Positions 13,344 to 62,937 of a stretch of DNA of 64,000 nucleotides are shown here, one piece after another. The stretch is taken from positions 62,001 through 126,000 of the forward strand of contig BDSU01000022.1 of NCBI GenBank assembly GCA_002897675.1, written 5' to 3'. The position numbers and the translations under genes are program-made. Source of the DNA: a bacterium BMS3Abin02. GTDB lineage: Bacteria > Actinomycetota > Acidimicrobiia > Spongiisociales > UBA4744. Every line of letters starts with the position of its first letter. Position 1 is the stretch's first letter. Below the pieces are notes generated by a model. That model saw only the letters and a list, made by a program, of their open reading frames with translations, was not told the origin of the DNA and ran no database searches.

Positions 13344-13760
13344 GGGACCCTGACCTTCGAATCTGTACGGGTCCGCGAGAAGTGACGGTGAAGGTCGTCG
13401 ATCGCGTCAGGAGACCGAAGAGATCACCGTGACATTCACAGCACCCGGCGACGTGTCCATCCAGCCCGATCAACGAAGATCCAGGCCCCGTCTGCACTGC
13501 ACGGACTCCCAGATCGTGTCGATGCGGTCGAGGCACCCAAGACGGAACGGGAGCGGCCCATCTTCCGACGATTCGCATCTCAGGACAGCTCCCCGGTACC
13601 CGGTCGGTTCTCGTTCCCAGGGGTTCTCTTCCAGGTCTGATGAGACGGGTGGGGATGTGGACAGGCTTGCTGTTTCCTCGGGGGGCGGGAGTTTCGTGTC
13701 AGCGAGGGGTGGTGCCCGTGGTGTCTTGTGGGTGGAATGGATCTGCTTCGGACGGGGACA
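13344..13760 (+). other. Intergenic region before the third ECF sigma gene
   Basis: About 417 bases between two plus-strand genes. Short open frames occur on both strands but none has coding character or a ribosome binding site. The sigma gene promoter must lie here; I could not pick it out. Nothing else is visible. Confidence 0.35.
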
Positions 13761-14228
13761 ATGAGCGTAGGGCGTGTTTCGGATGCGGAGGTGTATCGGC
13801 AGCACGCCCGTGACTTGGTCCGGTTCGCCACCGTGTTGGTGGGGTCCGACGATGCCCAGGATGTGGTGGCGAACGCGTTCCTTCGTTGCCTGTCATCGAA
13901 CGGTTGGCAGGAGGTGACAGATCGGCGGGCGTACCTGTTTCGGGTGGTCGCCAATGAGGCCCGCAATCTGAAGCGGTCTGCGGCTCGTCGGCGGGTTCGG
14001 GAAGCGTCGGTGGGAGGTGACCCGGCGGTCGAGATCCCTTCGCCTCGCCCGGATGTGGTCGCTGCGATCGGAGGGTTGAGTGTCCGTCAGCGTTCGGTGG
14101 TGTATCTGGCCTATTGGGAGGACATGACCGACCAGATGATCGCCGAGTATTTGGGGATCGGGTCGGGGTCGGTTCGTCGGCATTTGGGGAGGGCCCGGTC
14201 GAAGCTTCGGGAGGTGCTCGATGAGTGA
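13761..14228 (+). CDS. ECF-type RNA polymerase sigma factor
   Basis: A 155-residue sigma-70 family protein from ATG 13761 (GTG 13728 and ATG 13737 would extend it by up to 11 residues). Region 2 is at about 10-75 (RQHARDLVRFATVLVG, DAQDVVANAFLRCLS, RRAYLFRVVANEARNLKR), region 4 at about 100-152 (LSVRQRSVVYLAYWEDMTDQ, then the helix-turn-helix LGIGSGSVRRHLGRARSKL). It is short even for an ECF factor. Its last 8 bases overlap the ATG of the downstream membrane protein gene, the same coupling as at the other two sigma loci. Confidence 0.92.
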   Translation: MSVGRVSDAEVYRQHARDLVRFATVLVGSDDAQDVVANAFLRCLSSNGWQEVTDRRAYLFRVVANEARNLKRSAARRRVREASVGGDPAVEIPSPRPDVVAAIGGLSVRQRSVVYLAYWEDMTDQMIAEYLGIGSGSVRRHLGRARSKLREVLDE

Positions 14229-15906
14229 CAAGATGCGTAGAGATGTACGGTCCGCGATCGCCGAGATGGTGGCCGGATCCCCTGAGCCGCCCGCCTACGA
14301 GCGGGTCGTGGCGAAAGGCCATCGGCCGGCCGTTCGCCGGTCGGGCCCGATGTGGGCGTTGGCGGCGTTCGTGGTCGTGTTGGTGGTGGTGGGGGCGGCG
14401 GCGTGGCTGCGTCCGCCGGTAGCGCCGCTCCCGCCGGTGGCCGATGTCCCGTCGATCGGCGACGATGTTGCGGCTGCGGCGTTGCCGTCGGTGTTCGTTG
14501 CTGCGACCCGTGTGCCGGACGGGTTGTCCCTCGTGCGGTCCGAACGTGGCTTCGCGGATAGAGACACCGTGCTCGTATACGCGCCGTCAGGTGAGACAGG
14601 AGGATCGTCCGACGCCGACGCCGAACTGTCGATCAGGATGAGCGCACCCGAAAGTCCGGACTTTCCACCGGACATCTCGGTGATCGCCGGACGACTGACC
14701 GCCGCCTACGTGGACGCGACGATCACCGAGACGATCGTCCGGGGACAGCCGGGGTTTCTGATCGACGCCGATGGGTCGGAGATCGGCGGATGGACGGCGG
14801 CGGTGGTGACGATCGAAGAGCCCGGTCTCATCTCCGAGGTCCAGGGACGGTTCGTCGATGCCGCCGAGGTCCTCGCTGTTGCTCGCGGGCTGGTCCCGGT
14901 GTCCCGGGCCGAGTTCGAGCAGCGTGCAGCCGACGCGATCGACTGGGATTTGCAGGTCGACGCCCAGCCGGTCGACCCGAACCGTTTCCTCGACCTTCTC
15001 GCAGGGGTGCCAGGTGTTGAGTCGGCCACCTTGTCCACCTTGCACCTGAACGGGCCTGCAGTGGCATGGTCGATCGAATCGGATCCGTTATCCCAGGCCA
15101 TCCCTACGACCACCGCGCCGGTCACTACCACTACCACCACTACCGTCCTGGGCTCGGTCACTACTGGCCCGGCCGTCGGTGCAATGATCAGCGTGATGGT
15201 CACGCTCAAGGACGGCGTCGACCCGGAGACGGTAGCCGCCGGGATCCATGACCTCACAGACTTCGCCCAGGTCAGCTACTCGCCCGCGATTGCAGCAACG
15301 ATCAGTCAAGAGTATCTGGAGGCGGTGCTCGGCGACGCCACGATCATCCACCACGATCCGATCGTCTATCAGCCGCAGCCAGGTCCCGCACCAGTATTCG
15401 ACACGTCGGTTCTCGGCACCGAGGTCGAACTCGAAGCTGCCACCGCTACGACGGAGTCTCTGGACTCCACCCTCCAATCGATCGACACGTTCCGCAGTCC
15501 CCGGTTCCTGGGTGCGACTCCAACACCCTTGGAAGGTCCGATCGTCTACATTGGAGCCATCGACGACGGCGCGCGGCTGGTACTCGCGTTCATCAACGAT
15601 CGGGACTATTTCGAGATCACCGTCAAAGGATCCGAAGCCGGAGCGGGTGGAGGCAGACTCGGCGCCTTCTACTACGGAGTGACGAGTGGCGGCGGCGGAG
15701 ACGACGGCTGGTACATGACAGTCCGGGTCCCGCTCGAAACATCGGTCGTCGTGTTTGAGTTGGACGACGGGACCAGCCTGTGGCAACGTCCAATCGCCGG
15801 CCACGGACTGTTCCCGGTGGCATCGGACATATCGGGAATCTCCGGGACGATCACCGCTCTCGCCGTCGACGGGACCGTCATCGACCAATGGAGCGCCAAC
15901 CCGTGA
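14221..15906 (+). CDS. Large single-pass membrane protein coupled to ECF sigma gene
   Basis: A 561-residue protein with a basic cytosolic head (1-43), one transmembrane helix at about 44-62 (WALAAFVVVLVVVGAAAWL) and a long extracytoplasmic part. The first outer domain (about 95-240) has alternating strands. A second (about 245-370) holds two similar segments around a Thr-rich linker (LLAGVPGVESATLSTLHLNG and VMVTLKDGVDPETVAAGI), reminiscent of the ferredoxin-like outer domain of FtsX. The C-terminal 130 residues are Gly/Asp rich. Overlap with the sigma gene suggests an anti-sigma or sensor role; no zinc motif is seen. Confidence 0.75.
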   Translation: MSDKMRRDVRSAIAEMVAGSPEPPAYERVVAKGHRPAVRRSGPMWALAAFVVVLVVVGAAAWLRPPVAPLPPVADVPSIGDDVAAAALPSVFVAATRVPDGLSLVRSERGFADRDTVLVYAPSGETGGSSDADAELSIRMSAPESPDFPPDISVIAGRLTAAYVDATITETIVRGQPGFLIDADGSEIGGWTAAVVTIEEPGLISEVQGRFVDAAEVLAVARGLVPVSRAEFEQRAADAIDWDLQVDAQPVDPNRFLDLLAGVPGVESATLSTLHLNGPAVAWSIESDPLSQAIPTTTAPVTTTTTTTVLGSVTTGPAVGAMISVMVTLKDGVDPETVAAGIHDLTDFAQVSYSPAIAATISQEYLEAVLGDATIIHHDPIVYQPQPGPAPVFDTSVLGTEVELEAATATTESLDSTLQSIDTFRSPRFLGATPTPLEGPIVYIGAIDDGARLVLAFINDRDYFEITVKGSEAGAGGGRLGAFYYGVTSGGGGDDGWYMTVRVPLETSVVVFELDDGTSLWQRPIAGHGLFPVASDISGISGTITALAVDGTVIDQWSANP

Positions 15907-16042
15907 ACCCGGCATCTACCGAGATGACCGTGGGAGGGACAACCCCGTTCTCGTTGGCGATCTGGTCGTGTTTGGCCCCGAGGAGTCGGGTGTGGGGTTG
16001 CCGGCGGTTCCACCCGTCCGGCAGCGGCATTTCGACGGCTTG

Positions 16043-16592
16043 TCAGGGCGCCATGATGATGCGTGGCGATTCGCCGACCTGTCCTGCCTCGGGGTCCACG
16101 GGGTACCAGCCGACGTGGTGTTCTCGAGTCCGGAGCCTTCCAGGACGCCAACCCGCACGACTTGGCCACTTTCTTCATTCGCGATCGGACCGATGAGCAC
16201 GATGAGTCGGTCTGAGAGCATATTCCCGTCGTTGTCCACGACGGCCGACGGGTCTGTGAAGAACACGATGCAGGCTTCGTCGCCGAGTTCGGATCTGATG
16301 GCGCTCTTGGCGTCTTCGGTGAGGAACTGCGGGTTGCCCTCAAACTGGATCGCCGGCACATCACCGTACAAAGCCTCGCGTACGTAGACCTCCGACGGGA
16401 TATCGAACCCGGAATCCTCGATCGCTTTCGGGCAGCCACCGCCGGCAGCGAGGCTTCGGATCCGGAACGGTTGGACCCTGTTGCGATCCCACATCCCGCC
16501 ACGACCGTCAGGAACACAAGCCACGCGGCAAGCGGACGGATCGTTATCCTGCAAGCCTTCGCCAAGAGCTGCGGAGAATCTGTGGCATCCAC
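16043..16592 (-). pseudogene. Lipoprotein gene broken by two frameshifts
   Basis: The signal peptide and lipobox (WLVFLTVVAGCGIA) start from ATG 16592 in one frame. Near 16430-16450 the coding character jumps to a second frame (AIEDSGFDIPSEVYVREAL through VVRVGVLEGSGLE). Near 16105-16120 it jumps to a third (GWYPVDPEAGQVGESPR), which reaches a stop at 16045-16043. Both jumps fit the loss of one base each. Read together this would be a lipoprotein of about 180 residues. It is either an inactivated gene or a gene carrying two sequencing errors. No family recognised. Confidence 0.7.
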
Positions 16593-16623
16593 ATCATTAC
16601 TTCATGGGCGGAAACAACCGTAG

Positions 16624-16643: not shown

Positions 16644-16650
16644 CAACGGG

Positions 16651-17003
16651 TAGTGAGTTCGCCTGTAAGCCGGATTCTGTCCCGGGTTCTCCCCGGGGAC
16701 GGCCATCTATCTGGGACCGGTGTTGCCACCGGCCTCGTGCGGCCCACCTGGGATGTAGCGGACGGGCAATCCTGTCCCTGCTTGGCCTTGCTCCGGGTGG
16801 GGTTTGCCGAGCCGCCCCGGTCACCCGGGACGCTGGTGGTCTCTTACACCACCGTTTCACCCTTACCTGTGCCCGAAGGCCATCGGCGGTCTGTTCTCTG
16901 TGGCACTTTCCGTCGGGTCACCCCGCCTGGGCGTTACCCAGCACCCTGCCCTGTGGAGTCCGGACTTTCCTCGGGTCGAAACCCGCGGCCGTCCGGCGAA
17001 CTC
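16651..17003 (-). ncRNA. rnpB: RNase P RNA, bacterial type A
   Basis: The catalytic RNA of RNase P, which removes the 5' leader from tRNA precursors. On the minus strand the conserved core is plain: GAGGAAAGTCCGGACTCCAC near the 5' end, ACAGAGA and GGTAAGGGTGAAACGG in the middle, GGAGCAAGGCCAA, and ACAGAATCCGGCTTACAGG near the 3' end. The P1 helix closes perfectly, the 5' GAGTTCGCC (17003-16995) pairing with the 3' GGCGAACTC (16663-16655). That fixes the ends to within a few bases and gives about 350 nt. A -10-like element lies just upstream and a hairpin just downstream. Confidence 0.97.
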
Positions 17004-17010
17004 ATGACGA

Positions 17011-22498: not shown

Positions 22499-23107
22499 TC
22501 AGCCGCCGGATTGCTTCTGGGTCTGGCCCTCGTTGAGATTGCCCGGCGTTCCACCCGCAAGCAGCGTGTCGATCGTGCTGCTGATCTCGAACGGTGAGAG
22601 GGGGCCGGTCTTCTTGGCCATGATCGTCCCATCGGGTGAGATGAAGAACGTCTCAGGGACGCCGAACACGCCGAAGTCGATGGCAACTCGCGACTCGGGG
22701 TCGATGACGTAGGCCGTGTTCTCGGCTCTGCCGAACTCGTCGAGAAACGCGATCGCCCGGCGCGGCTCATCTTGGTAGACGACTCCCACGAAGCTCACAG
22801 GCTTGCCGACGTACGCGGCGGCCGCCGCCTCCAGAACCGGATGCTCCTGCCGGCAGGGAAAACACCAGGAGGCCCAGAAGTTCACCACGACGACGTTTCC
22901 CCGCAGGTCGGCGAGGCTGAGCACACCGTCCTGCTCGAGATACGCGAGCGTGTCCTCAGGTGCCGGCTTGCCGATGAGGGGGGAGGCGATCAGGCTCGGA
23001 TCCTTCCCGAAGCCACTGCTGAACACGACGACCATGGCGATCACGATCGCCAGAATCGCAGCGAGGCTCAGCCACATACCGATTCTCGGTCGTGTCGTCT
23101 CGCTCAT
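22499..23107 (-). CDS. ccmG: Cytochrome c maturation thioredoxin CcmG/DsbE
   Basis: A 202-residue membrane-tethered thioredoxin that keeps apocytochrome c cysteines reduced for haem attachment. A single anchor helix (about 11-31) precedes the thioredoxin domain with the active site FWASWCFPCRQEHP (C82, C85). The family's GVPETFFI cis-proline loop follows, and the sequence continues with SPDGTI. ATG 23107 is preferred because it overlaps the ccmF stop (ATGA); a longer frame to 23167 has a poor extension. It is the last gene of the ccm operon. Confidence 0.9.
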   Translation of the reverse strand: MSETTRPRIGMWLSLAAILAIVIAMVVVFSSGFGKDPSLIASPLIGKPAPEDTLAYLEQDGVLSLADLRGNVVVVNFWASWCFPCRQEHPVLEAAAAAYVGKPVSFVGVVYQDEPRRAIAFLDEFGRAENTAYVIDPESRVAIDFGVFGVPETFFISPDGTIMAKKTGPLSPFEISSTIDTLLAGGTPGNLNEGQTQKQSGG

Positions 23108-26434: not shown

Positions 26435-27111
26435 CGGGATGTCTCCTCGAGTGGGCGGGCGGTGATCACACCGACGACGGTAAGGGCAAGGTTCATGGCT
26501 ACAAGCAAAACGATCCAATTGAGGATACTGCGGTCTAAGCGAAGCGCTTCCACCACCTGTGACGAAGCGATCAGGAGCGGAACGGAGAGTGGGGCGACGA
26601 GCAGGGGGGCGAGCGTCGCACGAGTCCGGAGGCCGGCTGTCACGCCCCCTGCCAAGGTGCCGATCAGGGCGAGGCCGATGGCGACGAGGAGCACGATCAG
26701 CACGAGCCATCCCCAGCCGCGAATCGGCGAGGGGTTGTACAGCACGATGTCGAGGGGTACGAGTACGAGTTCGAATCCGAGCAAGAGAAGGGCACTGGCC
26801 GTCGAGCGGCCCACGAACGTGGCGGCAGGGTCGATGCCCAGCAAGGTCAAGAGTTCCCGCTGTGCCGGTTCGTCGGTCGCGGACTGGCGAAAAGCGACCA
26901 GCATGCCGAACAGGAGGGTGATGGCGAAGAACATGCCCGGTCCGATTCGCGCGAGCATCGCCTTTTCCGTCCCGATCGCCATCGGGAGCAGGAGCAGTGC
27001 GACCGCGCCGAAGGGAACGGTGATCGACAACACTTCTCCTGCTCGTCCTTCGATCTTGAGATCCTTTCGCATGATCTCGAACGCCTGACGCCAGAACTCA
27101 CGTGCACTCAT
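26431..27111 (-). CDS. ccmB: ABC transporter permease CcmB
   Basis: A 226-residue membrane protein with six hydrophobic helices. It forms the CcmAB ABC complex that drives release of haem-loaded CcmE. ATG 27111 overlaps the ccmA stop and gives the typical short cytosolic head REFWRQAFEIMRKDLKIEGR. Family-like blocks include GMFFAITLLFGMLVAFRQS and LAPLLVAPLSVPLLIASSQ. Confidence 0.9.
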   Translation of the reverse strand: MSAREFWRQAFEIMRKDLKIEGRAGEVLSITVPFGAVALLLLPMAIGTEKAMLARIGPGMFFAITLLFGMLVAFRQSATDEPAQRELLTLLGIDPAATFVGRSTASALLLLGFELVLVPLDIVLYNPSPIRGWGWLVLIVLLVAIGLALIGTLAGGVTAGLRTRATLAPLLVAPLSVPLLIASSQVVEALRLDRSILNWIVLLVAMNLALTVVGVITARPLEETSR

Positions 27112-27764
27112 GTGGCCACCAGACCCTCGACCGCAGTTCCGCCGACGAGCTCGTACGTGCGCTCCACGAGAGGGAGCATTCGGTCCGGCTCGTGGGAGAC
27201 GAGCACGACACATCCGCCCCGCCGTTTCACTTCCGCAACGGTCGCCTCGACCAGCATTGCGGCCATCTTGTCGAGGCCGGCATGAGCCTCGTCGAGGAGT
27301 AGCAGGTCGGGCTGCGTCATGAGTACGCGGGCGAACTCGACCCTGCGCAGCATTCCGTGAGACGAGTGATCGGCTCTGCGGTCCATGGCACCCCCCAACC
27401 CCACTTTCTCGAGGGAACGCTTCACGCTCGCGTTGGCGATGCCGGCAAGGCGCGCAACGAATTCGAGGTTCTCTTCGAGGGTGAGTTCGTCGTAGAGGGC
27501 CGGGAGATGCCCGAGGAGCGCCATGCGGCGTCGGATGGCCGGGGACGGTTCACGATCGAGGGGTGCCCCGAGCACCGTCCCTTTGCCTTCGGTGGGGCGC
27601 AGCAGGGTGGCGAGAACTCTCAGAAGTGTCGATTTTCCGGAGCCGTTGGGACCAACGATCCCCACGCCTTCACCGGGATCGACACGTAGAGAGACATCGC
27701 GCAGAACGGTGAGCCGGCCGAACCGCACGCCGACGCCATCGAGGTTGATCAACGGTACGTTCAC
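27108..27764 (-). CDS. ccmA: ABC transporter ATPase CcmA
   Basis: A 218-residue ATPase subunit of the haem-related CcmAB complex. Walker A is GPNGSGKST (38-46) and Walker B LLLLDEAHAGLD. The signature position reads SSHGMLRRVEFAR rather than LSGGQ, a relaxed form also seen in CcmA proteins. It is the first gene of the ccm operon, whose seven genes overlap or nearly touch, so its promoter must lie in the repeat-rich DNA upstream. Confidence 0.92.
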   Translation of the reverse strand: MNVPLINLDGVGVRFGRLTVLRDVSLRVDPGEGVGIVGPNGSGKSTLLRVLATLLRPTEGKGTVLGAPLDREPSPAIRRRMALLGHLPALYDELTLEENLEFVARLAGIANASVKRSLEKVGLGGAMDRRADHSSHGMLRRVEFARVLMTQPDLLLLDEAHAGLDKMAAMLVEATVAEVKRRGGCVVLVSHEPDRMLPLVERTYELVGGTAVEGLVAT

Positions 27765-27854
27765 GAGTCCAGAATGTTACGGGATCGGGCGGCGATGACT
27801 CGAATCGAGAGGCTGATCAGACCTGTACCTACTCCGGTGATGTACCAGGCGCCG

Positions 27855-28318
27855 AGGCCTCGGTGAAGACCGACCCGCCTTCTTGCTTCCCCTCGCAGGG
27901 GAAGTGGCCTCGGGGCTTTGGCCGAGGTCGATGGGGTGTCTTTCCTTCCCCTCGCAGGGGAAGTGGCCTCGGGGCTTTGGCCGAGGTCGATGGGGTAGAG
28001 ACTTTTCACACACCGCCATCGCCTCGAAGACTCGGCACTTCTGTCTGAGGGGTCTGGCTCCGGCTGCGCCGGTCCTGGTACACCCCCATCGCCTCGAAGA
28101 CTCGGCACTTCCCCCTGAGGGGGAAGGAAAGAGGTTGGGGTGCTGTTCTTGCTTCGCGTCGCAGGCAGACTCCGAGAGAAGACCGACCCGTCTTTCTTGC
28201 TTCCCCTCGCAGGGGAAGTGGCCGAGGTGAGGAACGAGCCGAGGTCGATGGGGTAGAGACTCTTCACACACCGCCATCGCCTCGAAGACTCGGCACTTCC
28301 CCCTGGAGGGGGAAGGAC
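27855..28318. repeat. Island of short palindromic repeats between ccmA and glgC
   Basis: The 641-base gap between the divergent genes ccmA and glgC is mostly repeats. Unit A occurs as two identical 52-base copies (27886-27937, 27945-27996; period 59) and a variant (28200-28254). It starts with the hairpin cttcccctcgcaggggaag. Unit B (about 28012-28050, 28081-28127, 28269-28316) is A's counterpart in inverted orientation, ending in a cttccccctgagggggaag-type hairpin. A plus B joined by tagagactyttcacacacc form a composite element of about 117 bases with inverted ends (28200-28316), present again in damaged form at 27945-28050. Promoters of both genes must lie within or beside it. Confidence 0.9.
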
Positions 28319-28405
28319 AAGAGGTGAGGGTTGTCGGAAGTGCTGCTCACCCGTTTCCTGCTGAGGTGGCAGAAGAAGGGCTCGCTGTCTTGCTAGCGTG
28401 AGCGC

Positions 28406-29629
28406 ATGATCCCTCGGGTTCTCGCCATCGTTCTTGCCGGAGGCGAGGGAAGCCGCCTCTTCCCGCTGACACGCGATCGTGCCAAGCCCGCCGTACCGTT
28501 CGGTGGTGGGTACCGTCTCGTGGACTTCGTCCTGTCGAACCTCGTCAATGCGGGCTTTCGCAGAATCGTGGTCCTGACCCAGTACAAGAGTCACAGTCTG
28601 GACCGCCACCTCGCTCAGACGTGGAGGTTGTCTCCGCTCCTCGGCAGCTATGTCGCCGCCGTTCCGGCTCAGATGCGGCGGGGACCGCAGTGGTTTGCAG
28701 GTTCTGCCGACGCGATCTACCAGAACCTGAACTTGATCGAAGATGAGCGTCCGGACCATGTGCTCGTGTTTGGTGCTGATCACATCTACCGGATGGATCC
28801 CCGACAAATGCTCGAACAGCACATCGACACAGGGGCAGGGGTCACCGTCGCGGGCATCCCGGTACCGATCGAAGAAGCGAGTGAGTTCGGGATCATCGAC
28901 GCGTCCGAAGATGCCAAGATCCGAAATTTCGTCGAGAAACCGGAGCAACCGCCGTCGATGCCGGGCGATCCGACACGTGCGTTCGCGTCGATGGGCAACT
29001 ACGTCTTTCATACCAAGACGATGCTGAAAGCACTGAGGGAGGATGCGGACGATCAGGACTCACGACATGATCTGGGCGGCAACATCATCCCGAAGCTGAC
29101 CGAGCGTGGTGAGGCGTACGTCTACGACTTCGCAGGCAACCGCGTCCCCGGCCAGACGGATCGAGAACGCGGGTATTGGCGAGATGTCGGCACGTTGGAC
29201 ACGTACTACGAAGCCAGCATGGACCTCATCGCCGTCAACCCGGTGTTCGACATGTACAACGAACGCTGGCCGATCCTCACGTGGGACTTCCCTCGTCCTC
29301 CTGCGAAGTTCGTCCACAATGTCGAAGGTCGTCGTGGCAGGGCACTGAACTCCCTCGTGGCCAACGGGACGATCATTTCGGGAGCGGTGATCCGCCAGTC
29401 TGTGGTTTCTTCGAGGGTGCGGGTGCATTCGTATGCGACGGTTGAGCAGTCGGTTCTCTTCGAGGGTGTGAGCGTCGGTCGCGGTGCCGTCGTGAGGAGA
29501 GCGATCATCGACAAGAACGTCCAGGTTCCGGACGGATTCCAGATCGGCGTCGACCCGGCCAAGGATGCCGAACGGTTCACCGTGTCACACGGAGGGGTCG
29601 TGGTGATTGGCAAAGGCGGTCGCCTTTGA
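28406..29629 (+). CDS. glgC: Glucose-1-phosphate adenylyltransferase
   Basis: A 407-residue enzyme making ADP-glucose from glucose-1-phosphate and ATP, the committed step of bacterial glycogen synthesis. The nucleotidyl-transferase motif [20 protein letters not shown] (7-26), the allosteric/substrate block [19 protein letters not shown], the metal-site ADHIYRMD, and YWRDVGTLD are all present. The C-terminal left-handed beta-helix has hexapeptide-like turns ([20 protein letters not shown]). Length is typical. No other glg gene is nearby. The ribosome binding site is weak and the upstream DNA is repetitive. Confidence 0.95.
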
Positions 29630-32454: not shown

Positions 32455-32500
32455 CCCTCAGGGGGAAGTGGCCGAGGCGCGGAATGAGTCGAGGTCGATG
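32455..32500 (+). repeat. Stray copy of the 28 kb palindromic repeat
   Basis: This stretch contains ggggaagtggccgagg followed by a variant of the rest of unit A (cggaatgagtcgaggtcgatg). It matches 28211-28250 with about four differences. It lies in the divergent gap between the acyltransferase and hotdog genes; its 5' hairpin is truncated to ccctcaggggg. Confidence 0.8.
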
Positions 32501-40134: not shown

Positions 40135-40235
40135 GGCTCCCGTCTCCCGAACATGTGTTCGATGCTAGCGCCTCGACCGGCAACCTTTGCGGCGTTCTGC
40201 CGGCCAGGAACGCCGAGCACCCCCCTTTCCCCCCG

Positions 40236-40283
40236 TTCTTGCGTGAGCTGGTTGCCTATGGCACGGGCGGCCTCACGCAAGAA
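40236..40283. repeat. 48-base palindromic element, copy 1
   Basis: Arms ttcttgcgtgag (40236-40247) and ctcacgcaagaa (40272-40283) enclose a 24-base loop with its own small hairpin (tgcc-tat-ggca). It lies in the 246-base gap between the exonuclease gene and the end of the methyltransferase gene. A second copy with the same arms lies at 55044-55091. Confidence 0.85.
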
Positions 40284-40379
40284 GGGTTGGGGGCGCCTTC
40301 GTTGTGCGGATCTTGCCTCGGCATCGACACCCCGAACGTCACCGGCCAAGGCACCGGCCGGGACGAGTGACAAGAACGG

Positions 40380-62905: not shown

Positions 62906-62937
62906 CCGAGGTGAGGACGAGCCGAGGTCGACGGGGT
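62906..62937 (+). repeat. Stray copy of the 28 kb palindromic repeat
   Basis: Matches 28222-28254 with one base missing and one substitution (ccgaggtgagg-acgagccgagg and on). The 5' hairpin part of the unit is absent. It sits directly behind the LLM oxidoreductase gene. Confidence 0.8.

Follow-up and report, generated by a model that had tools for sequence, protein, structure and literature searches.

The window analysed here, a 64,000-nucleotide stretch of the BMS3Abin02 genome, carries ccmA and a glgC-like nucleotidyltransferase gene in divergent orientation, and the gap between them is filled by five or six units of one double-hairpin repeat family, at 27865-28335 (Table 1). Each unit comprises a first hairpin (CTTCCCC, a short loop, GGGGAAG), a single T, a second hairpin, and the tail GATGGGG, and is preceded by a common front, CTCTTT[C/G], or a short variant thereof. 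An earlier note, made from the letters alone, had described two identical 52-base units, which were recovered at 27886-27937 and 27945-27996 (100% identity, E 3e-24), as well as a composite at 28200-28316 with inverted ends that each start in a G/C-rich hairpin. This composite was found as described, and its 117 bases are two units in inverted orientation with a short spacer between them, both ends reading CTCTTT[C/G]CTTCCCC. The same note had the island begin at 27855 and denied the composite coding capacity. The repeat content is real, but 27764-27868 is the remnant of a lost gene and lies outside the repeat; likewise, open reading frames do run mechanically across the island, but support for any of them as a gene is nil. 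Two stray copies that the note had placed in the same family by eye are indeed members, both degraded.

Table 1. Features of the ccmA/glgC gap, its context, and the two outlying units, in window coordinates.
Feature	Positions	Strand	Remarks
ccmA (context)	27108-27764	-	syntenic with G001-G003
LGT-family (PF01790) gene remnant	27764-27868	-	directly upstream of ccmA
L-type unit 1	27886-27936	+	hairpin 1, T, hairpin 2 (GGCCTCGGGGCTTTGGCCGAGGTC), GATGGGG
L-type unit 2	27945-27995	+	identical to unit 1 over 52 bases
Degenerate R-type unit	28009-28052	-	CTTCTGTCTGAGGGG arm; same rare variant on contigs C28 and C14 of the assembly
Linker hairpin between two R units	28053-28079	.	CTGGCTCCGGCTGCGCCGGTCCTGG; recurs at C11:125.6k, C11:187.1k, and C16:5.9k
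R-type unit	28084-28126	-	hairpin 2 = GCCGAGTCTTCGAGGC, tandem G.A mismatches
Non-unit flank	28145-28197	+	also in island at start of contig C14
L unit of complete composite	28200-28253	+	covariance-model match, 73.3 bits, E 7.5e-17
Spacer of inverted pair	28254-28270	.	TAGAGACTCTTCACACA
R unit of complete composite (28200-28315)	28271-28315	-	
glgC-like nucleotidyltransferase (context)	28406-29629	+	
Degraded L-type unit	32462-32500	+	E 5e-7; most surroundings absent from G001
Degraded L-type unit	62906-62937	+	E 8e-6; absent as such in G001

Full units were collected from this genome (53), from a congener (G001; 22), and from a member of the same family (G002; 18), and a single alignment (A4) formed the basis of both the covariance model and the pair counts. 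The sequence of hairpin 2 varies freely while its pairing is kept: across 39 distinct hairpin-2 sequences, 244 of the 326 possible standard pairs (75%) were present, compared to 124±8 after shuffling, and 53 of the 82 non-pairs were G.A or A.G, mostly owing to a mid-stem tandem GA/GA step. Within an alignment of 31 units, eight pairs had changed on both sides, and the covariation score reached 0.203, compared to 0.02-0.08 with slid partners and to 0.085±0.010 with shuffled partners, the latter being a control that kinship of the sequences alone can beat without any structure. Given the slid control and the existence of wholly different hairpin-2 stems (GGCGTCGAGC..GCTCGACGCC, ACCCGAGC..GCGAGGGG, and GGGTGAGG..CGAACCC), kinship alone is unlikely to explain this covariation. 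The loop of hairpin 1 separates two kinds of unit in this genome, L units carrying mostly TCGCA and R units CTGAG, CTCCAG, or similar, and L and R units form inverted pairs, five with a spacer of 19-27 bases and three with one of 87-88 bases. A search of Rfam returned no family above the gathering score for the repeat.

We searched the composite against the whole genome, an Acidimicrobiia assembly of 2.5 Mb in 46 contigs estimated to be 95% complete, and obtained 91 matches at E <= 10; at E <= 1e-3, the number reported was 45, and the best non-self match had E 8e-46. These matches group into about 30 islands across many contigs, and the copy number is far above chance. Nearly all islands (28 of 30) lie outside predicted ORFs, and contigs of the assembly often end in them. 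Units share common ends and occur singly, in tandem runs, and as inverted pairs, full composites being no more frequent than single units and tandem runs. The alternative that the island is a local duplication only is thus ruled out by the genome-wide copies, a criterion that the earlier note itself had set. A second, unrelated repeat family is represented at 40164-40354 of the window and at 6651-6830 of L099, with two conserved arms of about 43 and 52 bases lying about 100 bases apart; it occurs at some 40 places in the genome, and a copy lies directly upstream of glgC in G001.

Divergent gaps hold 6 of 88 intergenic units or islands, compared to 97 of 383 background gaps (p 5e-5, all groups), and convergent gaps hold 32 of 88, compared to 67 of 383 (p 2e-4, all groups), these counts being based on simple ORF calling and, in genomes other than this one, taking each unit of a shared gap on its own. 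For this genome alone, 2 of 24 were in divergent gaps, which is not significant. The island in the window itself sits in a divergent gap, a kind that the family otherwise avoids. Published REPs favour the same gap types, being mostly found in convergent or unidirectional ones (PMC3733652). The family is old in the genus: G001 was searched for the flanking sequences of 25 other islands, most of which could be located, and at most comparable sites G001 either has units at the orthologous place or has a contig that ends there. No target duplication or clean empty site was seen in comparison with G001, the orthologous sites being diverged or themselves holding units. Islands are thus altered through local duplication, recombination, and decay. 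Units are long-standing residents of the genus that probably spread as singles, tandem runs, and inverted pairs and settle mostly at the 3' ends of genes, where the harm done by an insertion should be least. Spread by transposition, through an unspecified agent, and spread by recombination copying both stand as readings of these data.

Two other accounts of the family draw on these observations, and both appear unlikely to us, to a similar degree. One holds that the units form a MITE family belonging to a DDE or other transposon whose terminal inverted repeats begin CTCTTTCCTTCCCC. Like bacterial MITEs, the composites are short, non-coding, and dispersed, with inverted ends sharing their first ~14-26 bases, and six inverted pairs in a Caulobacteraceae bin have a spacer of exactly 26 bases, i.e. 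a constant length. Single units and tandem runs are however at least as frequent as the full composite, and, unlike for bacterial MITEs, neither a target duplication nor a parent transposon or other autonomous element with these ends was found, the transposase search having covered the Y1 family only. The other account is that the repeat acts at the RNA level, as a 3' UTR element that affects how stable mRNAs are or how their ends are processed; selection would keep it, and recombination would be its main means of spread. The compensatory changes seen in hairpin 2 and the avoidance of divergent gaps would be expected of such an element, but units occur in both orientations and as inverted pairs, no terminator-like T run was detected at the units, no Rfam family passed the threshold, and folding of single-stranded DNA would yield the same covariation.

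Comparison with relatives indicated how the gap itself arose. Synteny between G001 and the window holds on either flank (about 90% identity), but where the window has 27853-28393, G001 carries 1.35 kb with two genes. These genes encode a TlpA-type redoxin (AhpC-TSA, Thioredoxin) and an LGT-family membrane protein, both co-oriented with ccmA, and the same pair is found at the locus in G002 (64% and 54% identical) and in a third relative, G003 (57% and 47% identical). In the window, the TlpA-like gene is gone and the LGT-like gene is reduced to its last ~35 codons, which adjoin the first unit. This remnant was recognised by tblastn with the G001 protein (residues 192-230 match at 72%, E 1e-9), and its DNA is 90% identical to that of G001 as far as 27853. 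DNA of the tlpA/lgt pair had no match elsewhere in the assembly. The closest redoxin paralogs are at most 38% identical, one of them at 22499-23077, at the far end of the same ccm cluster, and because such paralogs are present in the genome, loss of the redoxin/LGT pair was probably tolerable.

Since tlpA and lgt are present in all three relatives, the gap is not an ancestral divergent promoter gap, and the position of the island, exactly where relatives carry two genes, points to a deletion and not to a promoter region of the usual kind. The earlier proposal that the island drives the gap and must hold the promoters of both flanking transcription units was therefore not borne out: the gap derives from the loss of two genes, and a promoter scan, in itself weak evidence, detected no sigma-70-like promoter at 27750-28420. 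From the syntenic alignments, a deletion appears to have beheaded the ancestral ccm operon, whose leading genes were lost, the TlpA-type redoxin gene entirely and the LGT-type gene almost so, and the island would mark the place. Overall, we consider it probable that the island consists of REP/BIME-like, non-coding, non-autonomous double-hairpin units lying at the breakpoint of a tlpA/lgt deletion, which most likely came about through recombination between copies. The locus thus offers a view of REP-type repeats at the scar of a lost gene pair. Other differences from G001 were noted along the way: on contig C45, at 139450, one L unit is found where G001 has a 482-codon ORF (a PQQ-type propeller, by eye), and a 3.2-kb segment of the window (13382-16622) with sigma-factor-like and anti-sigma-like ORFs, again by eye, is absent from the syntenic place in G001. 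Next to that segment, the minus strand at 16650-17004 encodes a bacterial class A RNase P RNA.

The exact junctions at this locus call for some caution. The start of contig C28 (1-473) opens with 127 bases identical to ccmA, continues into a variant LGT remnant and an island 94% like that of the window, and then enters unrelated genes; in G001, the genes of C28 adjoin those of contig C14, and C14 too opens within an island much like these. The C28 start may come either from a strain in which the repeats mediated a rearrangement or from chimeric joining by the assembler. Together with the contig breaks at islands, it means that the exact junctions seen here could be assembly or strain effects. 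An assembler that jumped over the repeats and dropped tlpA/lgt would account for contigs ending in islands and for the 127 ccmA-identical bases of C28, an assembly-word-like length, running into a variant island. We nonetheless regard such an artefact as quite improbable, as contig C22 joins ccm to glgC in the order seen in G001, G002, and G003, the truncated LGT-like end stands beside repeats in two diverged versions, and the missing sequence is nowhere else in the assembly. Against the account that we favour, part of the similarity between the window island and those of C14 and C28 runs past unit borders, which suggests that blocks were copied by recombination rather than units transposed one by one. 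In the favoured account, recombination between copies would most plausibly have left the island at the breakpoint, and a transposase acting in trans on the hairpins may once have moved the units.

The family is not restricted to the genus. The covariance model of the unit matched 36 of 296 genomes of the class, and a pattern scan of 85,000 species, in which only the hairpin-1 arms and the tail were fixed, returned at least 120 stretches, compared to a chance expectation of about 3-12 for the whole collection. Among the stretches listed were Alphaproteobacteria (Caulobacteraceae, Maricaulis, Minwuia, Parvularcula, and Kordiimonadales), Chloroflexota, Dormibacterota, Acidimicrobiia, Bacteroidota, and Clostridia bins, with single matches elsewhere. 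Hairpin 2 was left free in the pattern, and 83% of 101 distinct ones were at least 75% paired, compared to 11% after shuffling; altered patterns gave 0-1 matches in the same 865 kb. Twenty genomes with a pattern match, picked for having one so that their counts do not reflect prevalence, had 2 to 129 model matches each, including 27 in Maricaulis maris DSM 4734, 44 in M. alexandrii, and 40 in Carboxylicivirga marina. Within the class, arms and tail drift (CCTCCCC..GGGGAGG; tails GGAGGGG or GAAGGGG), so the letters are less constant than pattern matches suggest. A plasmid or phage origin was dropped: searches of plasmids and phages with the window island gave nothing at E <= 1e-3, and the pattern matched 1 of 2.9 million viral contigs (0 for an altered-tail control pattern).

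The family behaves like REP/BIME elements: it is a short repeat, able to fold, whose copies build up behind genes. RAYT transposases are the usual explanation for REP-type repeats, and the earlier note, which had read the build as that of a MITE or REP/BIME-like element, pointed to a matching transposase or RAYT gene as its possible partner. The REP/BIME-like part of that reading held (dispersed, palindromic, with common ends), while the partner did not: no Y1_Tnp match was detected in the genome itself, whose assembly lacks about 5%, and 13 of 15 other carriers likewise gave none, among them G001, G002, and the isolate Maricaulis maris DSM 4734. Any one of the tags GTAG, CGTC, TGTC, and CCTC stood immediately before hairpin 1 in 2/50, 0/20, 0/17, and 1/140 units of four sets, which makes 3/227 for all the tags taken together. 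A classical REP family moved by a RAYT (a Y1 tyrosine transposase) recognising tag and hairpin, although in keeping with the hairpins, dimers, 3'-end location, and copy number, and with a Y1_Tnp gene in Maricaulis alexandrii that has three double-hairpin units at a distance of 0.8-1.5 kb, is accordingly very doubtful given this scarcity of enzyme and tag and the lack of any nearby unit at the eight other Y1 loci examined. The same two observations place the family outside the GTAG and CGTC superfamilies.

Like GTAG-type REP/BIME elements (Di Nocera et al. 2013, PMC3733652), the units are short, palindromic, intergenic, and numerous, lie mostly in convergent or unidirectional gaps, and form inverted dimers with spacers of tens of bases; L and R units distinguishable by the hairpin-1 loop and paired across 19-27-base spacers are a BIME feature as well. 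They depart from these elements in that the GTAG tag is missing, most carriers have no RAYT, each unit has two hairpins where a REP has one, and the tail, GATGGGG, is constant. CGTC-tagged REPs, including Neisseria dRS3, are reported without a dedicated transposase, mostly from Alphaproteobacteria but in several phyla, and are defined by a CGTC-type tag, an 8-9 bp stem starting with A/T pairs, and a CCA tail (PMC3733652). The present family resembles them in its mainly alphaproteobacterial but multi-phylum range, its 8-9 bp stems, and its apparent lack of a dedicated transposase, and differs in having no CGTC, TGTC, or CCTC tag, a second and freely varying hairpin, and GATGGGG rather than CCA as its tail. 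Our literature search, which left subscription journals mostly outside its coverage, found no description of the unit or of a trans-phylum repeat of this kind. The RIME of rhizobia, attributed to Osteras et al. in 1995, is reportedly built of two palindromes with a total length of ~100 bp. As far as their descriptions go, rhizobial RIME and A/B/C elements are similarly mosaic, intergenic, and palindromic (PMC2573895), and the trans-phylum module could already be described under another name, for example in connection with rhizobial RIMEs.

The lack of a RAYT in most carriers suggests that the unit may be read by some mobilising enzyme that has so far been overlooked, or else by a host factor that is conserved. 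We tentatively suggest, as a possibility short of an even chance, that CTTCCCC..GGGGAAGT-hairpin-GATGGGG units make up an untagged third superfamily of bacterial palindromic repeats, present at least in Actinomycetota, Chloroflexota, Pseudomonadota, and Bacteroidota, and that a conserved agent other than a RAYT moves or maintains them. In this multi-phylum family, the ends are conserved and the middle hairpin can take any sequence that preserves its pairing. Beyond the first reading of this locus, the analysis adds the origin of the gap in gene loss and the recurrence of the module, with copies numbering in the tens, among Alphaproteobacteria, Chloroflexota, Bacteroidota, and a Clostridia bin. 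As cultured strains carry the module too (Maricaulis, Carboxylicivirga, Plebeiobacterium, and a Kordiimonadales bacterium), the question of what reads it can be addressed at the bench. The Clostridia bin (G317) has at least 129 model matches in 1.9 Mb, several of them arranged serially at a spacing of ~118 bases.
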